From a bacterium (GTDB taxonomy: Bacteria > Myxococcota_A > Bradymonadia > UBA7976 > UBA1532): a stretch of 32,483 nucleotides of DNA. The stretch covers positions 1-32,483 of the forward strand of contig JAUHYW010000095.1 of the NCBI GenBank assembly GCA_030426085.1, read 5' to 3'. The position numbers and the translations under genes are program-made. Of the stretch, positions 2,919 through 21,675 are shown piece by piece (the stretch's first letter is position 1; every line of letters begins with the position of its first letter). The notes under the pieces are model-generated. The model did no database searches. It saw nothing but the letters and a program-made list of their open reading frames with translations, and was not told the origin of the DNA.

Positions 2919-2985
2919 CTGGAGGGCGTACCTCGCGTTGCATGAGTCGTCGGTTGCGCCCCTCCCTAATGTCGCAGTGGGGCCG

Positions 2986-3225
2986 GGGATCCAGGTGCGG
3001 GTTGAAGGTGCCGGGGATCCAGGTGCCGGGCACCTTGTTCGGGCAGGGATCCAGGTGCCGGGCACCTTGTTCGGGCACCTTGTTCGATGGGCAGATCCAG
3101 GTGCCGGGCACCTTGTTCGGATCCAGGTGCCGGGCACCTTGTTCGCCGGCAGGCACCTTGTTCGCCGGCACCTTGTTCGCCTTGTTCGATGGGCACCTTG
3201 CTCGATGGGTTGAAGGTGCCCGACG
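2986..3225. repeat. Palindrome and direct-repeat cluster (REP-like)
   Basis: The 15-bp palindrome AGGTGCCGGGCACCT (7-bp arms, one central base) occurs exactly at 3021-3035, 3053-3067, 3099-3113 and 3125-3139, each preceded by GATCC or ATCC and followed by TGTTCG. A partly decayed copy lies at 2991-3012. Half copies of GGCACCTTGTTCG follow, including a perfect tandem pair at 3061-3073 and 3074-3086 and others near 3151-3196. Each unit could fold as a hairpin or cruciform. Translations in several frames stay open (for example NKVPGTWI-type on the minus strand), but they only mirror the repeat and I do not call a gene. The layout resembles REP/BIME-type intergenic repeats. Confidence 0.85.
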
Positions 3226-3307: not shown

Positions 3308-4024
3308 CTACGAAGCGCCGGCCAGCGCCGTCAACGCGTCGAGGGCCGCGCGCAGATGAGGGCAGCGGGCGATGATCGACGCCTCGTTGCCGACGACGTA
3401 CCGCTGGCTCAGACGTCGCCAGCGCTTGGGGCTCTTGCGCAGGTGGCCCGGTGCACGCCGACGCTCGAGAGCCGGATCCGACGCGATCAGCGCCGCCACC
3501 GGATCGACCGCCTCCGGCTCGACCAGATCCGGCCGGGCGCCAGCCACGATCCACGACTCCGTCGCCTGGACGGCGGCCAACGATACATGCTGCGCCGGGC
3601 GCTCGCGCCGGATCGGCTCGGGCTTCGGCCACAGCCAGGCATCCAGGGCGCGGCGGATCACCGCGCCCCGCTCAACCGGTGAAGGCGCCGGCCCGAGCGA
3701 TGGGAGGAAGCCCAGCTCATCGGCCACCGCGTCGGCGATGTCGGCGTCGAGGTGGATGAGCAGCGCGTCGCACGCCCGATCCCCGGCGAAGATCGGCCGC
3801 AGGAACTCACCGACCCGCGAGGTCGGGGCGTAGCGCACACACCAGGCCTGGACCTTGCGCCACCCGGCGTCCTCCCAGGTGCCGCTCGTCGCGTCATACC
3901 TCGGGTGGAGGTTGCGCACCTCGACCGGCCCCCGCCCCTCGGCTTCGAACGCCGCCCCGAGAAGCTGTTCGATGACGGGCAGATCGGTCTTGCCCTCGGC
4001 GACCACGCCCACGACGAACGCCAC
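3308..4024 (-). CDS. Toprim-like DUF4276-type protein, partner of the adjacent ATPase
   Basis: A longer frame is open from 4102, but it overlaps the ATPase. I prefer the GTG at 4024, two bases after the ATPase stop (4027-4029), which gives 238 residues. Toprim-style acidic motifs are visible. VAEGKTD at 8-14 provides the Glu. LIHLDADIAD at 89-98 provides the DxD pair Asp93/Asp95. TESWIVA at 155-161 matches the ESW element common in DUF4276-type proteins. Toprim-fold proteins bind metal and often cut or rejoin nucleic acid. Pairs of an SMC/RecF-like ATPase with a Toprim-like protein occur in anti-phage systems of OLD, PARIS and RloAB type. The tight spacing implies one translational unit. The nuclease role here is inference. 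Confidence 0.72.
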   Translation of the reverse strand: MAFVVGVVAEGKTDLPVIEQLLGAAFEAEGRGPVEVRNLHPRYDATSGTWEDAGWRKVQAWCVRYAPTSRVGEFLRPIFAGDRACDALLIHLDADIADAVADELGFLPSLGPAPSPVERGAVIRRALDAWLWPKPEPIRRERPAQHVSLAAVQATESWIVAGARPDLVEPEAVDPVAALIASDPALERRRAPGHLRKSPKRWRRLSQRYVVGNEASIIARCPHLRAALDALTALAGAS

Positions 4025-4026
4025 GT

Positions 4027-5313
4027 TCAGCCCAACGCCTCGCGGATGCGCCCCTGGATCCACAGCTCGGAGAGGTTCAGCCCGCTCTGAGCCACCACCC
4101 ACTCATCCCGTGTCATGCCGGGTGGCGGTTGGAGCCGATAGAAGCGGGTCGCGCCGGCCGGCTTGCCGCCCGTGTCCCGATAGACGATGTAGACCCGATG
4201 GTCGGGGTCGAACAGATCGAGCGCGTCGAGCGCGGTCGGGTTGTGGGTCGTCAAGAAGACCTGCTGCGGCAGCCACGGATGCTTCCGGGCCGTCGTCGAG
4301 CAGACCGTCGCGACGATCTGCTCGACCAGCCGCCGCACCAGCGCCGGGTTGAGCGTGCCGTCGACGTTGTCGAGCGCGAAGATCGGCGGCGTGTTCCGGT
4401 GCCCCATGAGGGCCCCGACGAAGGCCAGGTACAGCGTGCCCTCGCTCGCGTCGTACGGTGAGAGGTAGCTGCGATCGGATCGCATGAAGCGATCCCTGAA
4501 GTAGAGGACGAGTTCGCCCGCCGCGACGTTGACCGACTTCGGCAGGATCTCCGGGTCGGGTTCGTCCACCTCGACATCAGCGGTCCAGCCGGTCAGCGCC
4601 CACAGGTCGAGGATGCGACCCAGCCGCCGGCGGAGCTTCGATCGGCCGCCCAGCGCATTGTGGGCGTCGATCACGTCGCCGAGGCACCGCGCCAGACCCG
4701 AGCCGGACAGCCCCAGCGGCAGCAGCGGTGACTCGACCCGGGCGACGCCGCGCATCACCGCGGTCTGGGGCGAGAAGATCGCGTAATGGGCGAGGGTGTC
4801 GATGACGTCGAGCGCGGGCCCGTCGACGCTGGCGAGCTGCGAGGCGATGTCCCACAGGCTGCGCTCGGGTTCCAGGCGCTCGGGCTTGATCGCCGGGCCG
4901 CCGTGGATCCTGGCGCCGTACCGCGGCGTCCGGGTCAGGACGTCGGCCCCATCCACCGTCAGCTTCTCGGTGTGGAACCGCAGCTCGGCGTCCTTGCCCC
5001 CGTAGAACGCGCACTTGTAGGTCGACGCCCGCTCGTCGCTCTCGGCGAAGTCGGCTTCGAGGCCGAACGTCAGCGGGTGGTCGTACCCCCGGAAGCTCGA
5101 CTTGAACAGGTTCGGGCGCGAGAGCCGCACCCCGCGCTGGGCGAGCGTGACGGCGTCGACCCCCCGCCCCAGCGCGGCGCTGACGATGCCCAGCGCTTCG
5201 AGCACGTTCGACTTGCCCGCGCCATTGCCCCCGATGAAGAGGTTGACCCGGCCGAAATCCAGCGTCGCGTCGTGGATCGATCGGAACCGCTCGATGTGCA
5301 GGCGCCGGAACAT
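4027..5313 (-). CDS. AAA-family (SMC/RecF/OLD-like) ATPase
   Basis: A 428-residue predicted ATPase of the AAA_15/AAA_21 group. The N-terminus is the classic strand, then HIERFRSIHDATLDF, then Walker A GGNGAGKS at 28-35. An ABC-signature-like segment DASEGTLYL lies at 288-296. Walker B is PIFALDNVDG at 310-319, followed by LNPAL, and a switch histidine sits in TTHNP at 355-359. The usual catalytic Glu after the Walker B Asp is Asn here (DN instead of DE), a variant I recall from ATPases paired with Toprim-like partners. The start at 5313 has only a weak ribosome site, but the protein begins exactly where the family does. The gene is followed two bases later by the Toprim-like gene. Likely role: nucleotide-driven sensor or activator of its partner. 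Confidence 0.85.
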   Translation of the reverse strand: MFRRLHIERFRSIHDATLDFGRVNLFIGGNGAGKSNVLEALGIVSAALGRGVDAVTLAQRGVRLSRPNLFKSSFRGYDHPLTFGLEADFAESDERASTYKCAFYGGKDAELRFHTEKLTVDGADVLTRTPRYGARIHGGPAIKPERLEPERSLWDIASQLASVDGPALDVIDTLAHYAIFSPQTAVMRGVARVESPLLPLGLSGSGLARCLGDVIDAHNALGGRSKLRRRLGRILDLWALTGWTADVEVDEPDPEILPKSVNVAAGELVLYFRDRFMRSDRSYLSPYDASEGTLYLAFVGALMGHRNTPPIFALDNVDGTLNPALVRRLVEQIVATVCSTTARKHPWLPQQVFLTTHNPTALDALDLFDPDHRVYIVYRDTGGKPAGATRFYRLQPPPGMTRDEWVVAQSGLNLSELWIQGRIREALG

Positions 5314-5374
5314 GCGGCGGGCGTACCACGGGCCCCGGAGGAGGACAAGGCGCTGGGGCCTTCATGAGATGGTT

Positions 5375-5398
5375 GGCACTCTATTCGGCACTCTATTC
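5375..5398. repeat. 12-bp tandem direct repeat upstream of the ATPase gene
   Basis: ggcactctattc occurs twice in exact tandem (5375-5386, 5387-5398) and is followed by gg. It lies in the 142-bp gap between the ATPase start and the end of pfaC. It matches the left-hand repeat GGCACCTTGTTCG at 10 of 13 positions, in the same orientation. I see nothing else definite in this gap, and no T-run hairpin that would terminate the pfa operon. Confidence 0.7.
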
Positions 5399-5455
5399 GG
5401 CCGGGCCACCGTCGATCACCTCAGCGACGACGACGCCGAGCCGCGGGCCTCGGGC

Positions 5456-8400
5456 TCACCCGCCCGGCTTGAGCCGCCGGGCCATCTCGGCCAGCCATCG
5501 GCCCTCGGGGCTGTCGTCGACGTCCGGCGGATCGGCCAGCAGGCGGCGGCTGCCGGGGGTGAGCTGCGCCCGCCCGGTCAGCAGCGCGCCCAGCGTCGCG
5601 TGGGGGTGCTCGGCGCCGTGGCGCGCCTGCCAGCGGGCCACCGCGGCGGCGAAGGGCGGATCGCCGGCGATGGGGGCCTCGTCGGCGTTGGGCGGGCCGA
5701 GGCGGTTGATGCCGTCGATGACCCGCCGCTTGCGCTCGCCGTAGTGCAGCGGGGCCAGTTCTTCGGGCAGCAGCGGGCGGCCGAACCAGATGTCCTGACG
5801 GCCGGTCTCGGCCCCGTCGCCGATGGGGAACTCGACGCGGCGCTCCACGGGCGCGGCGGGCAGGCCGCCGACGAAGCGCACCGGCACGATGGGCGCGCCG
5901 ACGGCGAGGGCCATGTCCACGAAGGCCCCCGACATCTTCTGCACCGGCGGGCGGCAGCTCAGCGCGCGGGTGCCCTCGACGTGCACCATCACCGAGCGCT
6001 TGCCCGAGGCCATCTCGGCGCCGAGGTCGCCGATGATGCCGGTCAGCGAGGCCTTGTCGGTGCGGTCGAAGAAGGTCATCACCCGCGGATCGGCGACGCC
6101 GGGGTAGGCGAAGCAGTGGCGGATGAGCCGGCCGAGCCACGTCTCGCGGTGCTCGATCTTGGCCAGGGTCACCGTGGGCACCCGGGTCAGGCCGGCGGTG
6201 ACGATGGAGAAGACGAGCGACTCGACGCCGGTCTGGTGGTTGGCGAGGTAGAGCACGCTGCGGTCGCCGATGGCGGCGAAGCCGTCGGGGTCGTCGAGCA
6301 CCACCCGCCCGAGGAAGCGCTCGATGAGGCCGTAGTAGAGGTCTTCGACGGGCCACGGGTCGCGGTCGAACCAGGCGGTCCAGAAGGCGCGCACGGCGGC
6401 GATGTCGAGGGCCCCCCGGCCGTCGCCGGTGACCCGGATGCGGTCTTCGTCGACGGCGGTCGTCAGGTCGAAGCGGGTCACGGGCAGGCGGTCGAAGATG
6501 CGGTGGGGGTGCAGGCCGTGGGCCCGGGCGGCGTGCTCCTGGCGGGCGATGGCCGGCGGGTCGTCGGCGCCGTAGAGGGCGGCGACGGTGCCCGGCAGCC
6601 AGTCCGAGGCCCGGACGGCGGCCGGGTCGAGCGCGGTGGCGTCGCCGTCGGTCACCGAGAGCGTCGGCCCGGGCTGACGGTCGCGCAGGAACGCCCGCCG
6701 CTCGATCGGGTCGGCCCGGCCGATGGGGCCCTTGGGCAGGCAGACCTCGACCAATCGCATCGCGGCCCGGACGCGCCCGCCGGCGATGAGCTGGATGGCG
6801 AAGGTCGGCATCTCGCCCAGCAGGCCGTCGAACCGCACCTCGCAGCGCACGTCGCCGGCGGTGGGCGGCGGGCCGAAGAGGTCGAGCGCGGGGATGGTCG
6901 CCGGGTAGGCCACCCGATCGGGGTCGAGGGCGGCGTGCCAGCGGTGCAGCGCGTCGTGGGGGATGCCGTGGGTCGCGCCGTCGAGCAGGGCCGGGTGCAG
7001 GCGGCCGACGGGCACCGACGTGGCGGCCCGCAGGCGGCTCGACGCGGCGCCGGGGCGGGTCACCAGCGACTCCAGGATCTGGAAGGCGGGCCCGTGGAAG
7101 AGCGCGCCGCTGGCGTAGGGGTCGGGGGCCGCCTCGCCGTCGATGGCCGGCAGCGGCGGGGGCGGCTCGGGGTAGCGCCCGGTGAGCACCCGGGCCGAGG
7201 CCAGCTCGCGGTCGCCGTCGAGCAGGCGCACCCGGTCGCCGTCGCGCACCCGGGTCAGGGTGCGGGGGCCGTCGACCACGAGCCATCCGCGGACCCGCAC
7301 GTCGCGCAGGCCGATGACGGTCTCGTCCGGTCCGACGCCGTCGGCGAGCAGGTCGGCGATGCTCGTCATCGGCAGCGCGGGCACGGTGAAGGTGGGGCGG
7401 TGGTCGTCGATCCAGGCGTCGCGCGCGGGGTCGAGCGTGACGGTGTCGGGCTGCGGGTCGTCGGCGAGCGGGCCCCCGACGACCCGCATCGCCAGCCCGT
7501 CGGCCTCGTAGATGCGCTTGCCGTCGACCCACAGCGACCCGCGGGCGGTGGCGACGACCCCGCCCGCCTCGCGCTCGACGGCGGTCACCTCGAGGGTGCT
7601 GGTGATGCGCCGGTTGTGGGTCAGCACCTGCCCCCGGTACTTCCAGCCCATGGCCCGGCCGGTGGCGATGGCCTGGAAGCGCGGGCGCTCGACGTCGGCG
7701 TCCAGCCCGGCTTCGAGCATGGCGCATTGCAAGAGCTGGAGCAGCGCTTCGAGGCCCAGCGAGCCGGGCTGCACCGGGTCCTGGAAGAAGTGGGCCCGGA
7801 AGAACCACGCGTCGGGGGCGACGTCCTTCTCGGCCCGGATCAGGCCCAGCCCCGCCTCGCCGTCGGCGGGCCAGTAGCCGGTGATCCGGTCGAGCATCAG
7901 CAGCTCGCCGTCGGCCAGCGGGGCCCGCCCGGGGCCGTAGCCGTGGGCGAGGTCGCGGGGGCGGGTCACCGGCCGGTCGAAGAGGGCCCGGGCGTCGGCG
8001 CCGACCGGCAGCCCGGCCTGATTGGCCAGCGCGGCGGGGGGGAAGAAGCCGAAGACGGTCTCGAGGGTGTAGACCGGCGCGTCGTCCAGCGTGCACTCGA
8101 CGGTGAACGACTCGATGATCATGCCCCCGGTGGCCGAGACGCCGTCGAGCCGGACCCGGGTCACCAGGGTGCCGGCGCCGGGGCCGATCTCGCGGTGCAC
8201 GGTGCCCTTGCCGTCGAGGTTGCGGAAGCCCAGCTCGCCGTCGACGGTGAGCGCCGATCCGACGTAGGACGCCAGCCACCCGCACGGCTGGAGCACGGCC
8301 TCGAGCAGGACCGCGTACGGCATCACGCCGCCGCTGTCCTCGAAGTACCAGGCCGACTGGGGCACGTCGTAATGCACCTCGACCCGGGCGCCGGCCTTCA

Positions 8401-11400
8401 TCACGCCGATCTCGCCGTCGACCCGCGCGACCCGGCTGAGGAAGTGGTACGGCGGCCCGGGCAGGCGGGCGACGCGGCGGTGGCTGTCGAAGCGGGCGTA
8501 CATCGGCCCGAAGGCGTCGCTCGGGCGGCCCCAGGCGCAGGCCAGCAGCGAGGCGTAGTCGAAGCGGAAGCCGTCGACCTCGGCGATGGGGCCGGGGTGG
8601 GCCGGGATCTCCAGCAGCTCGGGGCGGGCGTCGAGCGGCCACGCGGGCACCAGCTCGAGGGCCACCCGGCGGGCGTGGAACGCCTTGAGGCCGTCGACGG
8701 TGCACAGCAGATCGGCGTAGAGCGTCGGGTGGGGGCCGGCGACGACCTCTTCGACGAAGACCTCGGTCACCAGCAGCCGGCTCTCGGGGGTGACCTGCCC
8801 CCGGCAGCGCAGCGCGTAGTCCAGCTCGGGCACCGGGCGGAACCGCCAGCCGTCGCGGTCGAGGGTGTGGCCCAGCGCGGCGAGGTAGAAGGCCATCGCC
8901 TGGGTGCAGCCCTCGAACATCAAGGTGCCGGGCATGCAAGGGTCGTTATGGAAGTGGCCGTCGAAAAACCACCGGCCGGGGGTGACGGTCATCTCGGCCC
9001 GCAGGTAGCCCCGGCCCCAGGGGCCGCCGTCGATCGCGAGGTCGGTGATCCGATCGAAGAGCTGCATGCGCCCGGGCTGGATGCGCGGGCTGCGCACATG
9101 GGACGCGGCCCGCTCGAAGCCTTCGCCGAAGCAGGCGTAGGCGTCGCCCGCGGCGAAGGCGGCCACCTGCTCGGCGTCGAAGGCGGCCCGGGTGCAGCGC
9201 ACCGCGGGCGGGTCGAGCTGCGGGCGGGCGACGATGGCCTGCTCTTCGGGGGTCCACAGGCAGCCGGCCGACTCGGCCAGCTCGGCGTCGGTGAAGAAGC
9301 CCGCCTGTCCGTCGCGCACCGAGAGCTGGGGCCGGTCGCCGTTGTGGCAGTCGTAGTGGAAGAAGAAGAGCCGCACGTCGCCGTGGGCCGCGTGGCCGTC
9401 GATGTGGATGTCGAAGCGCAGCGTCTCGTCGAACCGGGGCAGGTCGCCGTGGTAGCGCAGGGTGCAGCCGAGCAGCCGATAGACCCGGTCGGCGGGCACG
9501 TTCAGGTCGACCCCGAGGTACGAGATGAGCATCAGGTCGGCCTGGCCCGACTCGATGAGGACGCCCGGCGGCATGTGCCCCTGGTGCAGATACCACGCGT
9601 CGCGGGTGACGTCGGTCTCGGTCCAGATGGTGCCGGTGCCCATGGACGCGGGCTCGGCGTCGATGCCCGTGACCCGGTCGGCGAGCAGCAGCGGCGGCAG
9701 CGGCATGCGGACCTGCCGCGCGCGGGTATCCTGCGCGGTGAACTGCGGGCCGAAGAGGGCGCTGATGCGCCCGCCGGCGTGCACGATGAGGGCGTCCCGA
9801 TCGAACGTAGGGCCCGTCGGCGGGCGGGGGCCATCGGGCTGCGGGCGGGTCGGCGCGGGCGGCGGCTCGGCGGCGACGGTCGGGGGCGGGTCCGGATCCG
9901 GCGGGCTCGGCGGTCGGGGGGCCGGGGTGACGGCCGGCGGCGGCGGGGCGCTCGTCGGCGTGACATCCGGGGTGACGGCCGGCGCGGCGCCGGACACGGC
10001 CGAGAGCAGCATGCGGGCGGCGTCGGCCCGCTGCCCGAGGAACCGCGCGTGCACGCCCTCCTGCCGGGTCAGGAAGGCCTCGTGGGCGCGGGCGATCTGC
10101 GCGATCTGACGCCGGTAGGCCGCCACGGCGGGATCCACCGATGCGTCGACTCGGCCGGCCCGGACCGGCTCGGGCGCGGGCGGGCGCGGCGACGCGGTCG
10201 GGCGGGCGCCGGTCAGCGGCGTCAGGCTCGGCGGCAGCGGAGGGGCCGGGGCCATCACTTCGAAAGTCATCGCGGTCTCCGGCGGGGCCTGCGCAGGTTC
10301 GGGTGCAGCGGGCGGGTCGACGCGCGGGGCGGGCGCCACATCCGGCCAGTGGCCGGGCAGCGTCAGCGCCCGCGCGGGCGGCTGAGCCGGGGTCGCGCCC
10401 AGCGCGGCGTCGAGCCGATCGAGGCGCACGTCGACCCCGGCGGTCCACAGCGCGGCGACCGCGTCGAGGGCGGCGTCGACGCCCCGGCCGCGCTGGTCGT
10501 AGGCCACCGCGAGCCCGTCCCGATCGCCGATGATCCGGCGGATCCACCGGGTGCAGGCCGACTGCGGGCCGTGCTCGACGAAGATCCGGACCCCGTCGGC
10601 CCACGCCGCCTCGATGGTCGGCGGCAGCACCAGCGGGCGGTCGGCCTGCTCGAGGATCGCCCGGGCGCACGCCTCGGGGTCGGGGGTGTAGGCCCCGTGA
10701 TGGGCGTTGCCGTAGATCCGGACCGGCGTGGGGTGGGTCGGGCGCCGATGCAGCGACAGCCAGCGGTCGCGCACCGCGGCCAGCTCGGGCACGTGCACCG
10801 CGACGGTGTAGTCCAGGCGGCGGCACCGCTCGGCGCCCAGGCGCGCGACGACGGCGTCGCAGGCGGCGGGCCGACCGGCGATCACCCCGTCGTCGGGGCC
10901 GTGCACGATGGCCAGATGCACGCCCGCGCGCCCGGCGAGCGCGTCGCGCACCGCGCCCAGCGGCGCCCGCACCGCCCAGCAGTTCCACGCGCCGCCGACG
11001 GCCTCGAAGCGGCCCGACAGGTCGCGCTCGAAGAGGCCGCACGCCTCGCTGTCGGCGACCAGCGCGTCGACGTCGCGCCAGACCCCGGTGGCCAGCAGGG
11101 CGTTGGTCTCGCCCGAGGAGTAGCCCAGCGCCGCGTCGGGGCGCAGGCCCAGCACCTCCCGGCTGAGCGCGGCGTGGAGCTGGCACAGCGCCGAGCTGCC
11201 CCAGAGCTGTTCGAGGGTCGTGCCGGGGCGCGCCGCGTCGCTCCAGGCCCACGCCAGCCCGGGCAGGAGGCGGTCGCTCGTGCGCCGGACCGCGGCGCCC
11301 AGATCGGGCAGCGCGGCCAGCAGCGATCGGCCCATGCCGCGGTAGGCGGCGCCCGCCCCGGCGAACACCCAGGCCACCTGACCGGCCAGCGGGGCCATGC

Positions 11401-13819
11401 GCGCGTGCACCCCGGGGCCGGCGGGGCCGCCGTCGCGCAGGTGGGCGATGGCCCGGGCCCGCCGCTCGGCGAGCTGCTCGTCGGTGGCCACGATCGCCAG
11501 CCGCGCCGGCCCCGCGCCGCCCGGCCGATCGGCGCGCACGGCGTCCAGCAGCGCACTTCGATCGGCCGCGGCCCAGGTGTGGATCCGCGGCCCCCGCCGG
11601 TGGCGCGGCGCTGGCGCGTCCACCGCAGAGAACGTGACCGCGGGGGCGCCGGTGACGCGCACCCCGATCGTCGGCGTCGGATCGATCAGCGGCGCGCCGC
11701 CCGGGGCGACCCGATGGGCCAGCGCCACCAGCCCGGCGGCGCTCTGAACCAGCCCCGCCGCGGCGGACGCGTGGCCCAGGCGCGCGCTCAGGGCCCGCCC
11801 GGCGTCGGTCTCACCGAGCGTCAGCCCGCCGTCGGCCGCGTCGCCCGAGAGCGCCCCGTAGATCCGGTCGCCGTCGCGCTCGGCGTCGGCCCGCCGCTTG
11901 AGGACCAGCACCACCGCCGCGTCGCCGGTCGGCTCCGGCGCGCCGACCGCGGCGCACGCCGCGCGGTGCACCGGCTCGCAGCCGAAGTCGACCGCCCCGA
12001 CGAGCGCCGTGTCCAGCTCGCCCGCCCGCAGGGCCCGGGCGGCGATGTCGAGCGCCACCAGCCCCGAGCCGGCGCCCGACGAGACGGTGAAGGCCGGCCC
12101 GCGCAGGTCGAACTGACTGCTCAGCCGGTTGGCGGGCATGTTGGGCATCGTGCCGACCACCCCCGGCGCCCGCAGCGCGGGGATCAGGCGGCCGCGGTCG
12201 GCGTCGGCGGTGCGCCAGCGGGCCCCGTAGCGGGTGACCTCGGCGTCGGGCTCCATGCCGACGAAGACCCCGGCGCGGTCGGGCGACCCGGTCGAGGTGG
12301 CCCCCAGCGCCTCGCGGGCGGCGGCGAGCACCGCCACCTGCTGCGGCAGGGCCTGCTTCAGATCGGCCGGCGGGAAGCGCAGCCCCACCAGCTCGACGTC
12401 GAGCGAGCCGATCCGGGGGTCGATCGCGTCGTCGCCCAGCGCCGCCTCGGTGAACGCCGCCCGGCCCGCCGCCTCGCCGACGCGGGCGCCCAGCGCCACG
12501 ACCACCACCGGCGCCCGCGGCGCCCGCGGCGGGTCGTCGGCGATGCCCGGATCGTGCTGCGAGACGATGAGGTGGGCGTTGTTGCCGCCGAAGCCGAACG
12601 CCGAGACGCCCGCGACGCGCAGGTCGCTGTCGGGCCAGGGCTCGGCGGCGGTCAGCAGCCTGAACGGCGTGTCGCGCAGCGCCGGGTTGGGGCGATCGAC
12701 GTGCAGCGTCGGCGGGCGTACGCCGGCCTCGAACGCGCCGAGCACCTTGAGCAGACCCGCGGCGCCGGCGGCGGTGATGAGGTGGCCCAGGTTCGACTTG
12801 AGCGATCCGATCGGCAGCCCCGGGTGATCGGCGAAGATCCGGGCGCTGCTGCGCAGCTCGGCGGCGTCGCCGACCGAGGTGCCGGTGGCGTGGCACTCGA
12901 GCAGCCCGCAGCGCCGGGGGTCGAGCCCGCTCTGGCGCCAGGCGGCCTCGATCGCCCGCGCCTGCCCGGCGGGGCTCGGCGCCAGCAGGCCCTTGCCCCG
13001 CCCGTCGTTGCTCAGCCCCACCCCGCGGATGACCCCCAGGATCCGATCCCCGTCGCGGTGGGCGTCGGCCAACCGCTTGAGCGCGAGGCACGCCGCGCCC
13101 TCGGCGGGTACGAGGCCGTCGGCGTCGGCGTGGAACGGTCGGCTGCGCCCGCTCGGGCTCAGCGCCTCGAGGGCGGTGAAGCCGACGTGCAGGAAGAGGT
13201 CGTCGGCCGCCTGCACCGCTCCGGCGAGCACCAGATCGGCCCGGCCGTCGTGCAGCCGGTCGCAGGCCAGCTTGATCGCGTACAGCGCGCTGGCGCAGGC
13301 CGCGTCGACGCAGAACGCCGAGCCGACGCCCAGCGCCGCCTCCAGCATGCGGGCCGGCCCGCTGCCGTGGAAGCGGTCGCGGGGGTCACCGCCGGGGCGG
13401 TCGAGCCAGCGGGACTCGGCGAAGGCGGCGAAGCCGGCGCTGGGGAAGCCCAGGTTGCCGAACACCGCCGCCACCCGCGGCCCGCCGACGGCGCCCGCCT
13501 CGCCCAGCGCCTGCCGGGCGGCGTGCAGGGTCCACAGATAGACCGGGTCGAGCCCGGCGAGCCGGGCGGCGGGCACCGCGAAGCCCTCGGGGTCGAAGGC
13601 GAAGCCCCGGACGTAGCCCCCGCGGTCGTGCCAGGACCGGTCCCGTCGATCGTGATCGTGGCCGACGAGGGCCCGCTCCGGCTCGACCCGCCAGCGGCCG
13701 GCGGGCGCCCGATCGACGAGGTCGCGCCCGGCGACGACCGCCCGCCACAGCGCGTCGGGGTCGGGGCCGGTGGGCAGGATGCAGCCGCGCCCGACGACGG
13801 CGACGGGGGCGAAGCTCAT
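5456..13819 (-). CDS. pfaC: PUFA synthase subunit PfaC (Pfa3 type): KS-CLF-AT-DH-DH-DH'-AGPAT
   Basis: An iterative megasynthase subunit of 2787 residues. The frame is open further upstream, but the ATG at 13819 overlaps the pfaA stop by ATGA and begins the KS correctly. Domains: KS 1-425 (Cys175 in DAACAS, His310, His346); chain-length factor 430-735, with the Cys replaced by Ala583; AT about 815-1110 (GYSSGE, Ser901, His1009); Pro-rich linker 1150-1340; FabA-type double-hotdog DH1 1345-1720 (GHFHNDPCMPG, His1622); DH2 1745-2115 (AHFFQDPVQPG, His2010); PKS-like DH' about 2120-2360 (LDGATH); and a PlsC-type acyltransferase 2500-2700 (NHQTGVE, His2528; VEGTR 2614-2618). A C-terminal AGPAT is known from myxobacterial PUFA synthases and suggests direct loading of PUFA onto lysophosphatidate. 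DH' lacks a clear HxxxGxxxxP motif and may be inactive. Confidence 0.93.
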   Translation of the reverse strand: MSFAPVAVVGRGCILPTGPDPDALWRAVVAGRDLVDRAPAGRWRVEPERALVGHDHDRRDRSWHDRGGYVRGFAFDPEGFAVPAARLAGLDPVYLWTLHAARQALGEAGAVGGPRVAAVFGNLGFPSAGFAAFAESRWLDRPGGDPRDRFHGSGPARMLEAALGVGSAFCVDAACASALYAIKLACDRLHDGRADLVLAGAVQAADDLFLHVGFTALEALSPSGRSRPFHADADGLVPAEGAACLALKRLADAHRDGDRILGVIRGVGLSNDGRGKGLLAPSPAGQARAIEAAWRQSGLDPRRCGLLECHATGTSVGDAAELRSSARIFADHPGLPIGSLKSNLGHLITAAGAAGLLKVLGAFEAGVRPPTLHVDRPNPALRDTPFRLLTAAEPWPDSDLRVAGVSAFGFGGNNAHLIVSQHDPGIADDPPRAPRAPVVVVALGARVGEAAGRAAFTEAALGDDAIDPRIGSLDVELVGLRFPPADLKQALPQQVAVLAAAREALGATSTGSPDRAGVFVGMEPDAEVTRYGARWRTADADRGRLIPALRAPGVVGTMPNMPANRLSSQFDLRGPAFTVSSGAGSGLVALDIAARALRAGELDTALVGAVDFGCEPVHRAACAAVGAPEPTGDAAVVLVLKRRADAERDGDRIYGALSGDAADGGLTLGETDAGRALSARLGHASAAAGLVQSAAGLVALAHRVAPGGAPLIDPTPTIGVRVTGAPAVTFSAVDAPAPRHRRGPRIHTWAAADRSALLDAVRADRPGGAGPARLAIVATDEQLAERRARAIAHLRDGGPAGPGVHARMAPLAGQVAWVFAGAGAAYRGMGRSLLAALPDLGAAVRRTSDRLLPGLAWAWSDAARPGTTLEQLWGSSALCQLHAALSREVLGLRPDAALGYSSGETNALLATGVWRDVDALVADSEACGLFERDLSGRFEAVGGAWNCWAVRAPLGAVRDALAGRAGVHLAIVHGPDDGVIAGRPAACDAVVARLGAERCRRLDYTVAVHVPELAAVRDRWLSLHRRPTHPTPVRIYGNAHHGAYTPDPEACARAILEQADRPLVLPPTIEAAWADGVRIFVEHGPQSACTRWIRRIIGDRDGLAVAYDQRGRGVDAALDAVAALWTAGVDVRLDRLDAALGATPAQPPARALTLPGHWPDVAPAPRVDPPAAPEPAQAPPETAMTFEVMAPAPPLPPSLTPLTGARPTASPRPPAPEPVRAGRVDASVDPAVAAYRRQIAQIARAHEAFLTRQEGVHARFLGQRADAARMLLSAVSGAAPAVTPDVTPTSAPPPPAVTPAPRPPSPPDPDPPPTVAAEPPPAPTRPQPDGPRPPTGPTFDRDALIVHAGGRISALFGPQFTAQDTRARQVRMPLPPLLLADRVTGIDAEPASMGTGTIWTETDVTRDAWYLHQGHMPPGVLIESGQADLMLISYLGVDLNVPADRVYRLLGCTLRYHGDLPRFDETLRFDIHIDGHAAHGDVRLFFFHYDCHNGDRPQLSVRDGQAGFFTDAELAESAGCLWTPEEQAIVARPQLDPPAVRCTRAAFDAEQVAAFAAGDAYACFGEGFERAASHVRSPRIQPGRMQLFDRITDLAIDGGPWGRGYLRAEMTVTPGRWFFDGHFHNDPCMPGTLMFEGCTQAMAFYLAALGHTLDRDGWRFRPVPELDYALRCRGQVTPESRLLVTEVFVEEVVAGPHPTLYADLLCTVDGLKAFHARRVALELVPAWPLDARPELLEIPAHPGPIAEVDGFRFDYASLLACAWGRPSDAFGPMYARFDSHRRVARLPGPPYHFLSRVARVDGEIGVMKAGARVEVHYDVPQSAWYFEDSGGVMPYAVLLEAVLQPCGWLASYVGSALTVDGELGFRNLDGKGTVHREIGPGAGTLVTRVRLDGVSATGGMIIESFTVECTLDDAPVYTLETVFGFFPPAALANQAGLPVGADARALFDRPVTRPRDLAHGYGPGRAPLADGELLMLDRITGYWPADGEAGLGLIRAEKDVAPDAWFFRAHFFQDPVQPGSLGLEALLQLLQCAMLEAGLDADVERPRFQAIATGRAMGWKYRGQVLTHNRRITSTLEVTAVEREAGGVVATARGSLWVDGKRIYEADGLAMRVVGGPLADDPQPDTVTLDPARDAWIDDHRPTFTVPALPMTSIADLLADGVGPDETVIGLRDVRVRGWLVVDGPRTLTRVRDGDRVRLLDGDRELASARVLTGRYPEPPPPLPAIDGEAAPDPYASGALFHGPAFQILESLVTRPGAASSRLRAATSVPVGRLHPALLDGATHGIPHDALHRWHAALDPDRVAYPATIPALDLFGPPPTAGDVRCEVRFDGLLGEMPTFAIQLIAGGRVRAAMRLVEVCLPKGPIGRADPIERRAFLRDRQPGPTLSVTDGDATALDPAAVRASDWLPGTVAALYGADDPPAIARQEHAARAHGLHPHRIFDRLPVTRFDLTTAVDEDRIRVTGDGRGALDIAAVRAFWTAWFDRDPWPVEDLYYGLIERFLGRVVLDDPDGFAAIGDRSVLYLANHQTGVESLVFSIVTAGLTRVPTVTLAKIEHRETWLGRLIRHCFAYPGVADPRVMTFFDRTDKASLTGIIGDLGAEMASGKRSVMVHVEGTRALSCRPPVQKMSGAFVDMALAVGAPIVPVRFVGGLPAAPVERRVEFPIGDGAETGRQDIWFGRPLLPEELAPLHYGERKRRVIDGINRLGPPNADEAPIAGDPPFAAAVARWQARHGAEHPHATLGALLTGRAQLTPGSRRLLADPPDVDDSPEGRWLAEMARRLKPGG

Positions 13820-16800
13820 CGGGGGCGGGCGACGGTGGTGATGCCCGACAGCGCCATGACCGGGCGCCCGTCCCGATCGCCGATGACCGCCTGGCTGGTG
13901 GCCTGGATCGCGCTGGACGCGCCGCGGTGCAGCACGCAGGTCAGCGGCCCGTGAGTCGGCGGGTGGCCGCTGAGGCGCACGGTCTCCACCCGGGTGGGCA
14001 GGCTGGCGACGTCGGCCTCGGCCTCGGTGAGCAGCAGGGCCGCCTGCAAGGCGCCGTCGAGCGCGGCGACGTCCACCGCCCACTCGCCGGGCCAGCCGGT
14101 GGAGACCCCGTTGAGGGTCGCGGCCAGCGCGCCGTCGGCGATCCCGTCGACCCGCTCGACGACCCGGAAGCGGCCTTCGTGGAAGAGCGCGCCGCCGTAG
14201 ATCGGGCGGTTCCAGGGCCCGGCGGGCGCGGCGGGGCGCTCGACGTCGATGGCGCCGGGCACCCCCATCTCGGCCTCGGCCCGGTAGCGGGGCACCCCGG
14301 CGGCGTCGTGCAGCATCAGCTGCACCCGGTCGCCGACCACCGCCGAGACCACGAGCCGCTCGACCGCCGGGTCGCCGTCGAGGCGGATGCCCTTGAGCAC
14401 CTGCAAGCCGTGCAGCGCCCGCACGACGAAGCCGGGGCGCACCGCCCGCGCCATCCGGGCGAACCACTCGGCCACCAGCGCCATCGGCACCACCGGCCCC
14501 CCGGCCACGGCGTGCCCGGCCAGCAGCGCGCGCAGCGCCTCGTCGACCCGGATCTCTCGGACCACCCGGGCCCCGTCGCTGCCGTCCATGCGCAGCGCCT
14601 CGGCCCGCGGCTCGCCACCCAGCACCAGCTCGACCGCGTCGGGCCGGGCGCCCGACAGCTCGTCGACCATCATCCGGGCCCCGACGTCCAGCGGGATCAG
14701 CGGCACGCCCAGCGACGCGAAGTGCTTCGCCAGCGCGGGGGTCACCATGCCGCCGGCCCACGGGCCCCAGCCCAGCGACTTGACCCGCATGCCCGGCCGC
14801 CGCCGCCGCAGGTCGAGGCAGACCTTGGCCAGGATCTCGTTGGACAGCGCGTAGACCGCCTGCCCGGTGTTGCCGCAGCGCCCCGAGACCGACGAGAAGA
14901 CGCACAGCAGCGCGAGGTCATCGGCGGCGGTGGCGTCGAGCAGCGCCCGCAGCCCGTCGATCTTGGTCCGGAAGACCCGTTCGAATTGGGCGTCGGTCTT
15001 CTCGGCGATGCGCTTGTCGGCCAGGACCCCCGCCCCGTGCACGACGCCGGTGATCGGGCCCCACTCGGCTCGCACGCCGTCCAGGGCCGCGGCGACGGCG
15101 GGCCCGTCGGTCACGTCCACCGCCACGTAGCGCGCCTGTCCGCCGGCGGCCTCGACCGCGGCCAGCGTGGCCCGGATCTCACGCCCGGAGGCGATCCGCC
15201 GCACCGTCGATCCCAGCGCCGCGGGGGTCGGGGTCTCGCCCCGGGCCCGGGCGTCGGCCAGCAGGGCCCGCTTGAGCCCGGCGTCGTCGGTGATGCCCGC
15301 GCAGCACGCCGGCTCGGGGGTCAGCGGGGTCCGCCCCAGCAGCGCGAAGCGGGCGCCGGTCGCCTCGGCCCAGGCGATCACGCAGCGGGCGGTCACCCCC
15401 CGCGCGCCGCCCGAGACGACGAAGACGCTGTCGGCGCCGAAGCCCTCGGCGGCCCGCTCGACGGGCACCGCGACGCTGCGCAGCGTGATCCGCCGCCCGT
15501 CGGCCCGCAGGCCCACCTCGGCCTCTCCCCCGCCCCGCAGCAGCTCGTCGGCCAGCGCGGCGGCGATGGCGTCGGCGGGGCGCCCGGCCCGCTCGATGTC
15601 GATGGCCAGGGTCGTGGCGTCGGGCCACTCCAGATCGGCGGTCTTGGTCATGGCCGGCAGCCCGCCGAGCCACGCTCGATGCTCGGGCATCGGCGCGAAG
15701 CCGAACGCCCCGCCGGTGTCCTGCACGGTCACCCACAGCGCGGGCGCGCCCCGAGCCACGGTGCGTGCAGCGCCGAACGCCTCGCGGTCGACGGCGAGGG
15801 CGTCGTCGATGCGCGCCACCGGGCGCAGGCCGCCGAGGAAGACGACCCGGTCGGCGCCGGGCGGCACCGCCTCGACGACCCGGGCCCGGACCCCGGACGC
15901 GGTCAGCGCGCGGGCCAGGGCCGGGGCGACGTCGCCGCCGTCGGGCGTGATCAGCACCTCGCCGTCGAAGAGCCCGGGCAACGCGAAGCCCGCGGCCGGC
16001 ACGCCGACCGGGTGCAGTTCGAAGCGGCCCAGCCCGGGGGGCGCGATCGCGGTCGGCTCGGACGGGGCGTCGTCGGCGGGCGGCGCCAGCGGGGTCGAGC
16101 CGGCGGCTTCGAAGTGAGCGACGATGGCGCCGAGGGTCTGGAGCGCGCCCAGCTCGGCGGGCTCGATCTCGGGCAGCTCGGGCGCCGCCTCGCGCACCGC
16201 CGCCAGGATCTCCACCCGCTTGATCGAGTCGATCCCCAGGTCGCCTTCCAAGTCCATCTCCAGCGTCAGCATGTCCGCCGGGTAGCCCGTCTTCTCGGCC
16301 ACCACCGCCAGCATCACCGCCTTCAGGTCGACCGCGGGCGCCGCGGGCGTCGGCTTCGGGGCCGCCGCCGGGGCTGCGGGCGCCGCCTCGTCCAAGTGCG
16401 CCACGATCTCGCCCAGCGTCGCCAGCGCCCCCAGCGCGCTCGGATCCAGCTCGGGCAGCCCCGGCGCCGCCTCGCGCACCGCCGCCAGGATCTCCACCCG
16501 CTTGATCGAGTCGATCCCCAGGTCGCCTTCCAGGTCCATCTCCAGCGTCAGCATGTCCGCCGGGTAGCCCGTCTTCTCGGCCACCACCGCCAGCATCACC
16601 GCCTTCAGATCGACCGCCGACGCCGCGGGCGCCGGCTTCGGGCGCGCGATAGGCGCCGCCTTCGGGGCCATGACCGGCGCCGGCTGCGGCTGCGGCTGCG
16701 GGGCGACATACGCTGGGGCCGTGGGGGGCGCGGCCGGAGCCGCCGCCATGGGACGGGGCGCCGGCTGCGAGGCATCAGCGTGCCCGAGCTCGGCCGGCGC

Positions 16801-19800
16801 GGCGCCGAGCATCGTCGCCAGACCGGTCAGCCCGGTCTGCATCGTCTCCAGGAACGCCTCGTGCGCCCGAGCCATCGTCTCCTGGTAGGCCGCGTGCGCC
16901 TGCGCGGTCTGGCGCTGGGTCTCCTCGAACGCCTGGAGCCAGCCGGGCGACGGATCCCGAGGCGCGCCGCTGGCCACCCGGCGCACCGCCACCGTCGGCG
17001 CGTGGACCGGGCTGCTCGCGACCGCGGCAGCGCGCGGAGGCGCCACCGGCGTCGCGATCGGCCGCGCGGCGGCCACCGACGGGCGCCGCGGCGCAGGCGG
17101 CGCCGAAGGAGCCGTCGGCGCGGCGTCGACCGGCTTCGAGACCGACGCCGGCCGCGGCGGGTTGGGTGGCGGCAGCTCGGCGGCGCCACCCGGCGGCGGA
17201 TAGGGCTTGCCGTGGTTGCTGCCGCAGATGGGCACCGCCAGCCGGGCCTTCTTCACCGTCGCCGGGTCGATCGGCGCGCGATAGCGACGCCACAGCGCCC
17301 CGACGTCCAGCCCGAGCCCGGCGACGGCCAGCTCGCCGACCGCGCGCAGGAACGACTCGACGCCGCCCCGCCCCTTGCGATCGAGCGGCACCGCGCGATG
17401 CGGGCGGTCGCCGAGGATGCGCCCGATGAGCCCGGTGAGCACCGCCCCCGGGCCGACCTCGACGAACGTGCGCACGCCGTCGGCGTACATCGCCTCGATC
17501 ATCTCGACGAAGCGCACCGGGCTGACGAGCTGCTCGGCCAGCCGGGCCTTCACCGCGTCGCCGTCGGCGGCGTGCGGGGCGGCGGTGACGTTGGCGTAGA
17601 CCGGCCGCGCGGGCGCGGCGAACGCGATATCCCCCAGGAACTCGGCGAACGGCGCCCGGGCTTCGGCCACGACCGGCGAGTGGAAGGCGGTGGCGACCGG
17701 CAGCCGCCGGCCGCTCATCCCGGCCTCCGACAAGGCCGCCTGCGCGGCGTCGATGGCCTCGACCGGGCCCGAGAGCACCACCTGCCGGGGGCCGTTGTGG
17801 TTGGCCACGACCACCGCCGGGTGCCCCTCGACCGCCGCCCGCACCGCGTCGATGGGGGCCCGCACCGCCAGCATCGCGCCGGGGGTCTGCGCAGCCTCGG
17901 CCATCAGCTCGCCTCGGCGGCGGGCGACGCGCAGCATGTCGTCGGCCCCGATCACCCCCGCGGCGTACAGCGCGGTGACCTCGCCGAAGCTGTGCCCGGC
18001 GACCCGCGCCGGCGCGAGCCCCATCGCGTCGAGCAGGGCCAGCATCGACAGCGAGGTGCAGCCGATGGCCGGCTGGGCGTTCTCGGTCGCCGTCAGCCGC
18101 GCCGCGTCGCGGGCCGCCTGATCGTCGGCGAAGCCGGCGCGCGGGAAGCAGACCCCGTGCAGATCGATGCCCAGCGCGGCGGCCCGATCCCACGGGGCGC
18201 GCGCGGCGTCGAACGCCATCGCCAGCTCGGCGCCCATGTCGACCGCCTGGCTGCCCTGACCGGGGAAGACGAAGGCCACTTCGCCCGCGTGCGGTCCGGT
18301 GGCGTAGACGCTGCCGTCGGGCAGCAGCAACGCGCGCTCGGGATCGGCCTCGACCCGGGCGGCCAGCGCGTCGAGCCGGCTGCGGGCCGCCTCGGGGCTG
18401 TCGGCGATCACCGCCATCCGGGCCGGGGCGGTGGCGTCGAACGCGCCCTGGCTCTGCCGGGCGGCCCACGCCAGATCGGCGTCGCTGCGGCAGCGCCCGG
18501 CCAGGGCCCGCGCCTCGGCGACGGCCCCCGCCCCGTCAGCCGCCGAGATCAGGAGCAGCCGCGCGGCGATGGGATCGAGCCGCTCGGCGGGCGTGGCCCC
18601 GGTGTACTCCTCGAGGGTGACGTGGAAGTTGGAGCCGCCGAAGCCGAACGAGCTGACCGATGCCCGCCGGGGGTGGTCCGCGCCCCGGATCCAGGGGCGG
18701 GCCCGGGTGTTCAGGCTGAAGGGGCTGTCTTCGAGGGCCAGCGCGGGGTTGGGCCGGTCGATCTTGATGGTGGGCGGCAGCACCTTGTGGTGCAGGGCCA
18801 TGATGGCCTTGAACAGCCCGGCGGCGCCGGCGGCGGCCTTGGTGTGGCCGATCTGCGACTTCACGCTGCCCAGCGAGCACCACTGGCGATCGGCGCGCCC
18901 GGCGTCGTCGAAGACCATGCGCAGGCCCTCGAACTCCGCGGCGTCTCCGGCGATCGTGCCGGTGCCGTGGGCCTCGACCAGCTCGACGGTCTCCGGGCCG
19001 TAGCCCGCCCGCGCGTAGGCCCGGCGCAGCGCCCGGGCCTGCCCCGACGAGACCGGGGCGTAGACGCTCTTCGACCGCCCGTCCGACGAGGTGCCGACGC
19101 CCTTGATCACGGCGTAGATCCGGTCGCCGTCCCGCTCGGCGTCGGCCAGCCGCTTGAGGGCGACCATGCCCAGCCCCTCGCCGAGCATCGTGCCGTCGGC
19201 CCGGTCGGAGAAGGGCCGGCAATCCCCGCTGGCGCTCAGGGCCGGGGTCTTGCTGAAGCACATGAACATGAAGATGTCGTTGAGGGTGTCGACCCCGCCG
19301 CTGATGACCAGATCGCTGGTGCCGAGCTGCAGTTCGGAGATGCCCATCGCCAGCGCCGAGAACGTCGACGCGCAGGCGGCGTCGGTCACGCAGTTGGTGC
19401 CGCCGGTGTTCAGCCGGTTGGCGATGCGCCCGGCGACCACGTTGCCCAGCAGCCCGGGGAAGCTGCTCTCCTGCCACGGGGTGTAGTGATCGGCGATGCG
19501 ATCGCAGGCCGCCTGCACCTCGTCCTCGGGCAGCCCGGACTCGCGCAGCGCCTTGACCCACACCGGCCGCTGGAGGCGGCTGACCATCGACGCCAGCAGT
19601 TCCTGGGCCGAGGTCACCCCCAGGATCACCGAGATGCGCGAGCGATCCATGGTCTCGAACTGAGCCCCGGCGGCGTCTTCGAGCACCCGCCGGGCGAGAA
19701 TGAGCGCCAGGAGCTGCGAGGTGTCGGTGGCCGGGATGATGTTCGGCGGCACGCCCCAGCCGAGGGCGTCGAAGTCGACGTGACCCAGGAAGCCGCCCCG

Positions 19801-20007
19801 GCGGGCGTAGGTCTTGTCCGGCGCGCGGGGGTCGGGGTCGTAGTAGTCCTCGACCAGCCAGTGGCTCGGGGGCACGTCGTCGATGAGGTCGCGCCCGGCG
19901 AGGATGTCGCGCCAGAACCCGGAGGCGTCGAGCGAGCCGGGGAAGAGGGCGCTGACCCCCACGACGGCGATGGGCTGGGAGGCCGGCGACGGCGGCGTCT
20001 GGGACAT
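13816..20007 (-). CDS. pfaA: PUFA synthase subunit PfaA (Pfa2 type): KS-AT-ACP-ACP-KR-DH
   Basis: A 2063-residue condensing subunit. KS 10-470 has the full triad (Cys212 in DAACAS, His347, His388). The malonyl-type AT at 575-880 has FPGQGSQ, GHSFGE with Ser673, and AFHSP. A Pro/Ala-rich linker at 940-1130 includes an amphipathic helix with RAHEAFL (1047-1053). Two ACPs follow, with attachment Ser1167 and Ser1261 in LGIDSIKR. KR spans about 1390-1800, with the nucleotide site VSGGARG and SSVS/Tyr1719. The C-terminus is a PKS-like DH with HxxxGxxxxP at 1832-1841 and DxxxQ at 1984-1988. Two ACPs is few, since marine PfaA proteins carry roughly five or more. A GAGG site lies upstream of the ATG. 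pfaD ends 16 bases before it and pfaC overlaps its stop by four bases, so the three genes form one operon. Confidence 0.95.
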   Translation of the reverse strand: MSQTPPSPASQPIAVVGVSALFPGSLDASGFWRDILAGRDLIDDVPPSHWLVEDYYDPDPRAPDKTYARRGGFLGHVDFDALGWGVPPNIIPATDTSQLLALILARRVLEDAAGAQFETMDRSRISVILGVTSAQELLASMVSRLQRPVWVKALRESGLPEDEVQAACDRIADHYTPWQESSFPGLLGNVVAGRIANRLNTGGTNCVTDAACASTFSALAMGISELQLGTSDLVISGGVDTLNDIFMFMCFSKTPALSASGDCRPFSDRADGTMLGEGLGMVALKRLADAERDGDRIYAVIKGVGTSSDGRSKSVYAPVSSGQARALRRAYARAGYGPETVELVEAHGTGTIAGDAAEFEGLRMVFDDAGRADRQWCSLGSVKSQIGHTKAAAGAAGLFKAIMALHHKVLPPTIKIDRPNPALALEDSPFSLNTRARPWIRGADHPRRASVSSFGFGGSNFHVTLEEYTGATPAERLDPIAARLLLISAADGAGAVAEARALAGRCRSDADLAWAARQSQGAFDATAPARMAVIADSPEAARSRLDALAARVEADPERALLLPDGSVYATGPHAGEVAFVFPGQGSQAVDMGAELAMAFDAARAPWDRAAALGIDLHGVCFPRAGFADDQAARDAARLTATENAQPAIGCTSLSMLALLDAMGLAPARVAGHSFGEVTALYAAGVIGADDMLRVARRRGELMAEAAQTPGAMLAVRAPIDAVRAAVEGHPAVVVANHNGPRQVVLSGPVEAIDAAQAALSEAGMSGRRLPVATAFHSPVVAEARAPFAEFLGDIAFAAPARPVYANVTAAPHAADGDAVKARLAEQLVSPVRFVEMIEAMYADGVRTFVEVGPGAVLTGLIGRILGDRPHRAVPLDRKGRGGVESFLRAVGELAVAGLGLDVGALWRRYRAPIDPATVKKARLAVPICGSNHGKPYPPPGGAAELPPPNPPRPASVSKPVDAAPTAPSAPPAPRRPSVAAARPIATPVAPPRAAAVASSPVHAPTVAVRRVASGAPRDPSPGWLQAFEETQRQTAQAHAAYQETMARAHEAFLETMQTGLTGLATMLGAAPAELGHADASQPAPRPMAAAPAAPPTAPAYVAPQPQPQPAPVMAPKAAPIARPKPAPAASAVDLKAVMLAVVAEKTGYPADMLTLEMDLEGDLGIDSIKRVEILAAVREAAPGLPELDPSALGALATLGEIVAHLDEAAPAAPAAAPKPTPAAPAVDLKAVMLAVVAEKTGYPADMLTLEMDLEGDLGIDSIKRVEILAAVREAAPELPEIEPAELGALQTLGAIVAHFEAAGSTPLAPPADDAPSEPTAIAPPGLGRFELHPVGVPAAGFALPGLFDGEVLITPDGGDVAPALARALTASGVRARVVEAVPPGADRVVFLGGLRPVARIDDALAVDREAFGAARTVARGAPALWVTVQDTGGAFGFAPMPEHRAWLGGLPAMTKTADLEWPDATTLAIDIERAGRPADAIAAALADELLRGGGEAEVGLRADGRRITLRSVAVPVERAAEGFGADSVFVVSGGARGVTARCVIAWAEATGARFALLGRTPLTPEPACCAGITDDAGLKRALLADARARGETPTPAALGSTVRRIASGREIRATLAAVEAAGGQARYVAVDVTDGPAVAAALDGVRAEWGPITGVVHGAGVLADKRIAEKTDAQFERVFRTKIDGLRALLDATAADDLALLCVFSSVSGRCGNTGQAVYALSNEILAKVCLDLRRRRPGMRVKSLGWGPWAGGMVTPALAKHFASLGVPLIPLDVGARMMVDELSGARPDAVELVLGGEPRAEALRMDGSDGARVVREIRVDEALRALLAGHAVAGGPVVPMALVAEWFARMARAVRPGFVVRALHGLQVLKGIRLDGDPAVERLVVSAVVGDRVQLMLHDAAGVPRYRAEAEMGVPGAIDVERPAAPAGPWNRPIYGGALFHEGRFRVVERVDGIADGALAATLNGVSTGWPGEWAVDVAALDGALQAALLLTEAEADVASLPTRVETVRLSGHPPTHGPLTCVLHRGASSAIQATSQAVIGDRDGRPVMALSGITTVARPR
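16180..16613 (-). repeat. 282-bp tandem repeat encoding the two ACP domains
   Basis: The DNA for the two carrier domains repeats with an offset of 282 bp (94 codons): the block at about 16180-16331 recurs at about 16462-16613. By eye only two mismatches fall in roughly 150 bp, both third-position G/A changes. The surrounding linkers have diverged much more, so the ACP cores look recently duplicated or kept alike by gene conversion. Confidence 0.85.
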
Positions 20008-20023
20008 GGCGATGGACCTCGGC

Positions 20024-21604: not shown

Positions 21605-21675
21605 TCCACCTCGAAGTGCCACCGAGTGACATTTCCTGTTCGAGGCCCGACGGTATACTCTGTCGGGCAGGTGCA
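21605..21675. promoter_or_regulatory. Divergent pfaD/tetR promoter with candidate TetR operators
   Basis: This 71-bp region carries three dyads. The best operator candidate is TGCCAC-CGA-GTGACA at 21617-21631, one mismatch between arms and extended by further A/T pairing to 21614-21634. Around it, CCTCGAA (21609-21615) and TTCGAGG (21639-21645) form a 7-bp inverted repeat. A second dyad CCCGAC-N10-GTCGGG (21646-21667) encloses TATACT (21654-21659), a good -10 hexamer for tetR. No clear -35 was identified on either strand. The first dyad sits just upstream of the pfaD ribosome site, where a bound repressor could block both genes. Confidence 0.65.

Follow-up and report, generated by a model that had tools for sequence, protein, structure and literature searches.

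Do the two adjacent genes described here form an under-described anti-phage or DNA-damage system, as a first-pass annotation of the sequence had proposed, or do they belong to a kind that is already catalogued, and how might such a pair act? The genes lie in a window of 32,483 nucleotides, by which we mean the whole stretch of DNA that was analysed, and both open reading frames were found on the minus strand where that annotation had placed them. The longest open reading frame of the second gene opens at 4102 (-). We took the GTG at 4024 as its start because this codon is supported by the alignment of homologues, which leaves 2 bp between the stop of the ATPase gene and the start of its partner.

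4027..5313, minus strand: M31A (PDC-M31A), a predicted OLD/Rad50-type ABC ATPase of 428 aa (PADLOC, Pfam AAA_21, AF2, VIA)
3308..4024, minus strand: M31B (PDC-M31B), a Toprim-like predicted nuclease and remote DUF4276 relative of 238 aa (PADLOC, hhalign, AF2, VIA)

Compared with the copies in a congener, dN/dS stands at ~0.13 in the ATPase gene and ~0.15 in the partner gene; these low values point to purifying selection and therefore to two maintained genes.

The PDC-M31A model of PADLOC-DB matches the ATPase with E=8.1e-85 (residues 1-423, profile positions 1-389 of 395), and two M31B models match the adjacent partner gene with E=1.9e-14 and 1.2e-12. Gene order and overlap-like spacing are also the same as in PDC-M31. 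The runner-up models for the ATPase (HEC-01A, AriA and PDC-M07A) score >60 orders of magnitude worse, and a Pfam search recognised nothing in the ATPase beyond the generic AAA_21 domain, with no match for the partner. Judged by model E-values alone, the pair is a divergent member of the catalogued 'phage defence candidate' PDC-M31. Typical PDC-M31 ATPases score ~1e-175 to 1e-184, whereas the window pair and that of the congener sit on a divergent branch (E=8e-85 and 2e-14). Since both subunits match the PDC-M31 models, the pair is not the under-described type without clear match that it was first suspected to be, but a divergent member of a catalogued one. PDC candidates derive from a guilt-by-embedding survey and mostly lack experimental validation (PMC12988326); within the searchable library, our literature search found no paper naming PDC-M31 and no experimental study of it.

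The motifs first read in the two proteins, an intact Walker A, an Asn in place of the catalytic Glu and a switch His in one, and E...DxD and ESW in the other, are all present (GGNGAGKS, ALDN and THNP; EGKTD, DAD and ESW). Those of the ATPase are located as follows.

5209..5232, minus strand: Walker A GGNGAGKS, residues 28-35 (GxxGxGK invariant in 22 homologues, last residue S/T)
4438..4455, minus strand: ABC signature-like YDASEG, residues 287-292 (E291 and G292 invariant in 22 homologues)
4345..4386, minus strand: Walker B and D-loop PIFALDNVDGTLNP, residues 310-323 (Asn316 at the catalytic-Glu position of ABC ATPases)
4237..4248, minus strand: switch His motif THNP (His357, invariant in 22 homologues)

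YDASEG may thus be the ABC signature motif of M31A. The AF2 model of the protein (pLDDT 89.5) shows an ABC-type fold, matching Rad50 and SMC heads (Z ~20), PtuA (19.2) and retron Eco8 OLD (17.9) when compared with solved folds by VIA.

The Walker B motif of M31A reads ALDN, with Asn316 replacing the catalytic Glu. Glu occupies this position in 0 of 41 distinct homologues, where the Walker B dipeptide is DN in 37, DS in two, EN in one and ES in one, and the Asn of the window copy is therefore not due to chance. In an alignment to P2 Old, DNVDGTLNP of M31A stands opposite the DEPE motif (IDEPE), and DEPE is kept in same-phylum ATPases that are paired with ordinary DUF4276 proteins, one of them in the window's own genome. 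These alignments therefore indicate that loss of the Glu is a trait of the whole family rather than a quirk of the window copy. Such a replacement would be expected to slow ATP hydrolysis.

The missing Glu could, however, be substituted by D318 (DNxD), which is nearly invariant (21 of 22 homologues). M31A would then hydrolyse ATP normally, with Asp318 as catalytic base, and the pair would work exactly as PARIS or OLD do, with no latch. The archaeal OLD protein Cran1, whose ATPase activity is unaffected by Walker B substitutions, offers a precedent for such insensitivity (PMC12796447). Set against this reading is the contrast between the replacement of Glu in 41/41 homologues and the DEPE retained by same-phylum ATPases that have a DUF4276 partner, and we regard normal hydrolysis as possible but rather doubtful.

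Homologues were drawn from same-phylum genomes, plasmids, one phage record and viral contigs. A single-query search (P0001) recovered one relative from genome_contigs and nothing from viral_contigs, whereas a profile returned 19 near-full-length relatives; in E. coli genomes, there was no DNA-level match to the pair of an Enterobacter plasmid. Within the phylum, the module is patchily distributed, being present in 16 of 379 genomes. A partner gene lies directly downstream of every M31-clade ATPase with readable downstream DNA (40 loci in several phyla), usually overlapping it by 1-8 bp or starting within ~15 bp. At one locus (G297:C97; L053 4300-5260), the partner has decayed through an internal deletion, with DxD and ExW gone and the ATPase reading frame open. 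The distance matrices of the two proteins are strongly correlated across 38 pairs (Mantel r=0.88), a value reached in 0 of 5000 permutations, the highest of which gave 0.21. This co-variation indicates that M31A and M31B evolved as a unit.

Two orphan ATPase paralogues, G000:C92:53494-54558 (L055) in the window's genome and G209:C94 (L056) in the congener, have no partner and were set aside. In both congeners, an alpha-2-macroglobulin-like gene adjoins these M31A-like ATPases, which may be a relative that is inherited vertically and has a different role. The window's genome also carries a second, more typical PDC-M31 pair (G000:C10:29992-31796; L046 8932-10796), whose ATPase is 35% identical to that of the window and which has no obvious defence neighbour. 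ATPases with canonical Walker B motifs (IDEPELGLHP-type and SEEPENHLNP) are paired with DUF4276 or DUF4276-like proteins at G000:C114:66806-68517 and G000:C164:56824-58508. Counting these two and the M31 pairs, two-gene modules of this sort number at least four in the genome.

Comparison with the congener delimits the unit that moves.

3321..5330, unstranded: extent of the mobile unit, the sole stretch homologous to congener contig G209:C71 (75% DNA identity)

The flanks of the module differ between the window and this contig. In the congener copy of the polyunsaturated fatty acid (PUFA) locus that adjoins the module in the window, other genes are found at the module's position; at the site that holds the module in the congener, an unrelated gene is found in the window's genome. 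As the two genes alone are common to the congeners, and each genome has a module-free version of the other's site, we conclude that they form a mobile two-gene cassette; a module fixed at a conserved chromosomal place was ruled out by the same comparison. The PUFA locus, a large polyunsaturated fatty acid/polyketide synthase locus at 5456-21682, contains ketoacyl synthases, FabA-like dehydratases and a PfaD-like enoyl reductase. Repeats also flank the module: a cluster of short repeats with the palindromic core AGGTGCCGGGCACCTTGTTCG lies directly downstream (2979-3209), and a double GGCACTCTATTC lies upstream (5375-5401). Copies of the 26-nt repeat are scattered through the genome, with 24 sites at ≤3 mismatches compared with none in a reversed control. 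These palindromic repeats were considered as RAYT/REP-transposase elements, which we rejected as no Y1 transposase was found in the genome.

Elsewhere, the pair resides among defence genes. In G038:C378, it is embedded in a type I restriction-modification (R-M) operon, flanked by HsdS and an HsdR-like gene (HsdM-HsdS-M31A-M31B-HsdR); in G011, it directly follows HmaA-HmaB, and in G226 it directly follows HmaB, beyond which that contig ends. On an Enterobacter conjugative plasmid, it lies beside CBASS genes and an integrase, and M31 pairs are also carried on viral contigs and, alone, on small mobilizable plasmids of 5.8-12.8 kb. Clear R-M or Hma neighbours occur at only 3 of the 16 phylum loci, and none of 100 control proteins, taken from distal parts of (for the most part) these contigs, matched an R-M or Hma model. 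It should be noted that neighbour counts from PADLOC are qualitative, as control stretches also match generic kinase models (e.g., PD-T4-6). In the window, no recognisable defence gene surrounds the module, whose neighbours there are asparaginase, PUFA synthase, MsrA and MscS. Given the mobile carriage and the R-M, Hma and CBASS neighbours, the anti-phage role originally suggested is the most plausible reading.

Mobile carriage would also suit a toxin-antitoxin or plasmid-stabilisation system, in which M31B is the toxin, M31A neutralises it and the benefit goes to the mobile element rather than to the host. The pairs on 5.8-12.8 kb mobilizable plasmids, the constant two-gene layout and the mobility of the cassette all fit this explanation, but the copies within a type I R-M operon and behind HmaA-HmaB suit defence better, and M31A, at 45 kDa, is big for an antitoxin. 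We consider it improbable; since toxin-antitoxin action overlaps with abortive defence, the two readings are not exclusive.

The case for a nuclease in the pair turns on the partner, M31B, whose conserved positions are listed here.

3983..3997, minus strand: Toprim motif 1 EGKTD, E10-D14 (E, G and D invariant in 19 partners; just after strand 1 of the model)
3740..3748, minus strand: Toprim DxD, D93-A-D95 (both Asp invariant in 19 partners; end of strand 87-93 of the model)
3551..3559, minus strand: ESW motif, E156-S-W158 (W invariant in 19 partners, E in 17 of 19)
3434..3436, minus strand: invariant Lys197 (19 partners)

In total, E10, G11, D14, P41, W55, D93, D95, W158 and K197 are invariant among the 19 aligned partners. 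In the AF2 model (pLDDT 85.8), E10 follows strand 1 and D93/D95 close a later strand within an alternating alpha/beta core, which is the Toprim arrangement. OLD Toprim domains rank first, third, sixth and ninth among the nine best VIA matches of this model, and among these nine have the longest aligned lengths; their scores (Z 7.3 over 163 residues for 6nk8, BpOLD; 6.6 for 6njv; 6.3 for 6njw; 6.0 for 6p74) all lie beneath the safe threshold of 8. Foldseek alone gave nothing significant for M31B (best E 0.045), hhalign against the Toprim part of P2 Old was not significant, and the M31B sequence profile had no match in the PDB. The structural check named in the first-pass annotation thus favours a Toprim fold, weakly (Z 7.3 < 8).

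Profile comparison connected M31B to DUF4276. A profile of 27 partners aligns to that of DUF4276 over 204 columns (hhalign probability 97.9%, E=3.6e-13), three of 10 aligned partners match Pfam DUF4276 (PF14103) directly (best 2.5e-7), and one cyanobacterial-plasmid partner is annotated as DUF4276; the window partner does not reach the curated cut-off of PF14103. On this evidence of sequence, M31B is a remote relative in the DUF4276 superfamily, and it is a predicted nuclease. Alternatively, M31B might have a Toprim-like fold with no nuclease role, its part in the pair being regulatory or inactive. The weak structural match would be compatible with this, as would the Gly that replaces E156 in one homologue, the Enterobacter plasmid copy, but E10, D14, D93 and D95 do not vary among the 19 diverse partners, and we find a non-nuclease role distinctly improbable.

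A RecF/RecN-like housekeeping pair for DNA repair or recombination is very unlikely, for although the ATPase fold and N-terminus match Rad50/SMC/RecF and Toprim domains occur in RecR too, the module is patchy in its phylum (16/379 genomes), sits at a mobile site, is carried on plasmids and by viruses, and has defence neighbours. Homologue loci are not consistently in housekeeping operons, a finding that the first-pass annotation had named as one that would speak against its reading, and the DNA-damage alternative gained no direct support.

How does the pair relate to defence systems that combine similar proteins? OLD-ABC and Toprim pairs are known as modules of defence or backup, and BREX and Hma-like systems recruit them as backup effectors (PMC12839542), so that in this respect, too, the type had already been described. 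The closest systems with a worked-out mechanism are PARIS and GajA. In PARIS (AriA-AriB, class 4 OLD), Ocr, an anti-restriction protein, is sensed by the OLD-type ATPase AriA, which then sets free AriB, a Toprim tRNase (PMC12839542, PMC12409363, PMC12796447) that is a two-metal enzyme (PMC12409363). PDC-M31 likewise joins an OLD-type ABC ATPase and a Toprim-like protein in adjacent genes and has been recruited beside restriction systems, as PARIS has (PMC12839542, PMC12796447), but differs in the Asn that replaces the catalytic Glu. The AriA model PDLC02980 matches the ATPase with E=3.7e-19, far more weakly than M31A does and with the same profile span as generic AAA_21, and the window partner matches no PADLOC AriB model up to E=1. 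We therefore do not consider M31 a member of PARIS, given the lack of an AriB match and the different Walker B.

Class 1 OLD and Gabija GajA (class 2 OLD) also combine an ABC ATPase with a Toprim domain, and GajA binds ATP and has likely lost hydrolysis (PMC12796447). Unlike in class 1 OLD, the ATPase and Toprim parts of M31 are two genes with a stop between them, and unlike in Gabija, there is no adjacent UvrD-like helicase GajB, the neighbours in the window being asparaginase and PUFA synthase. The initial reading, in which a Toprim-like protein is coupled to an OLD-like ATPase and the pair resembles OLD and PARIS but is cleanly neither, thus holds. Pairs of ATPase and DUF4276 have the same two-gene layout and a remotely homologous partner, but their ATPases keep DEPE and their partners use EGxTE, TTxxDxY and HEFEAL, whereas M31B uses EGxTD, DxD and ExW. 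PtuA of Septu and retron systems is among the closest solved ATPase folds; its partner PtuB, however, is an HNH nuclease rather than Toprim-like. RloAB was set apart by family searches, in which the window partner matched no Pfam or NCBIfam family up to E=1.

We think it fairly probable that the pair is a split OLD-type module of PDC-M31 that moves horizontally and joins a sensor to an effector in the manner of PARIS, an ATP latch restraining a Toprim nuclease until infection; the E/D/D residues of M31B, invariant in 19 partners as they are in Toprim enzymes, are in keeping with this. M31A would bind ATP in engaged heads and, its catalytic Glu being replaced by Asn (or Ser), would probably hydrolyse it slowly or not at all, from which we propose that ATP acts as a latch. 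In the ATP-held state, M31A would keep M31B, a small Toprim-type metal nuclease, inactive. A cue of infection (for instance, an anti-restriction protein of the phage, or a change in nucleotides or DNA) would then release or activate M31B, which would cut nucleic acid (tRNA or DNA) and stop the infection, possibly via growth arrest. Within restriction systems, the module may serve as a backup when restriction is blocked. We also put forward, as a tentative and more specific proposal with a limited chance of being correct, that PDC-M31 is, across the whole family, a hydrolysis-deficient branch of split OLD (nearly all members have DN rather than DE, and none has the Glu). In this proposal, the ATPase, as an ATP-occupied latch, would keep a Toprim nuclease of the DUF4276 superfamily in check and would protect restriction systems when they are inhibited or ATP is depleted.

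Overall, these data describe a real, conserved and mobile module that is a probable defence unit of a kind already catalogued, and the PDC-M31 pair is most likely an apparently untested type of anti-phage defence unit. Our findings add to PDC-M31 the family-wide loss of the catalytic Glu, the link to DUF4276 and the embedding in R-M and Hma loci, which together make the module testable. They tie an uncharacterised catalogue entry to a testable mechanism, an ATP latch with a Toprim nuclease, and connect M31B to DUF4276, a functionally uncharacterised but widespread domain that is paired with similar ATPases in 93 of the 379 phylum genomes.
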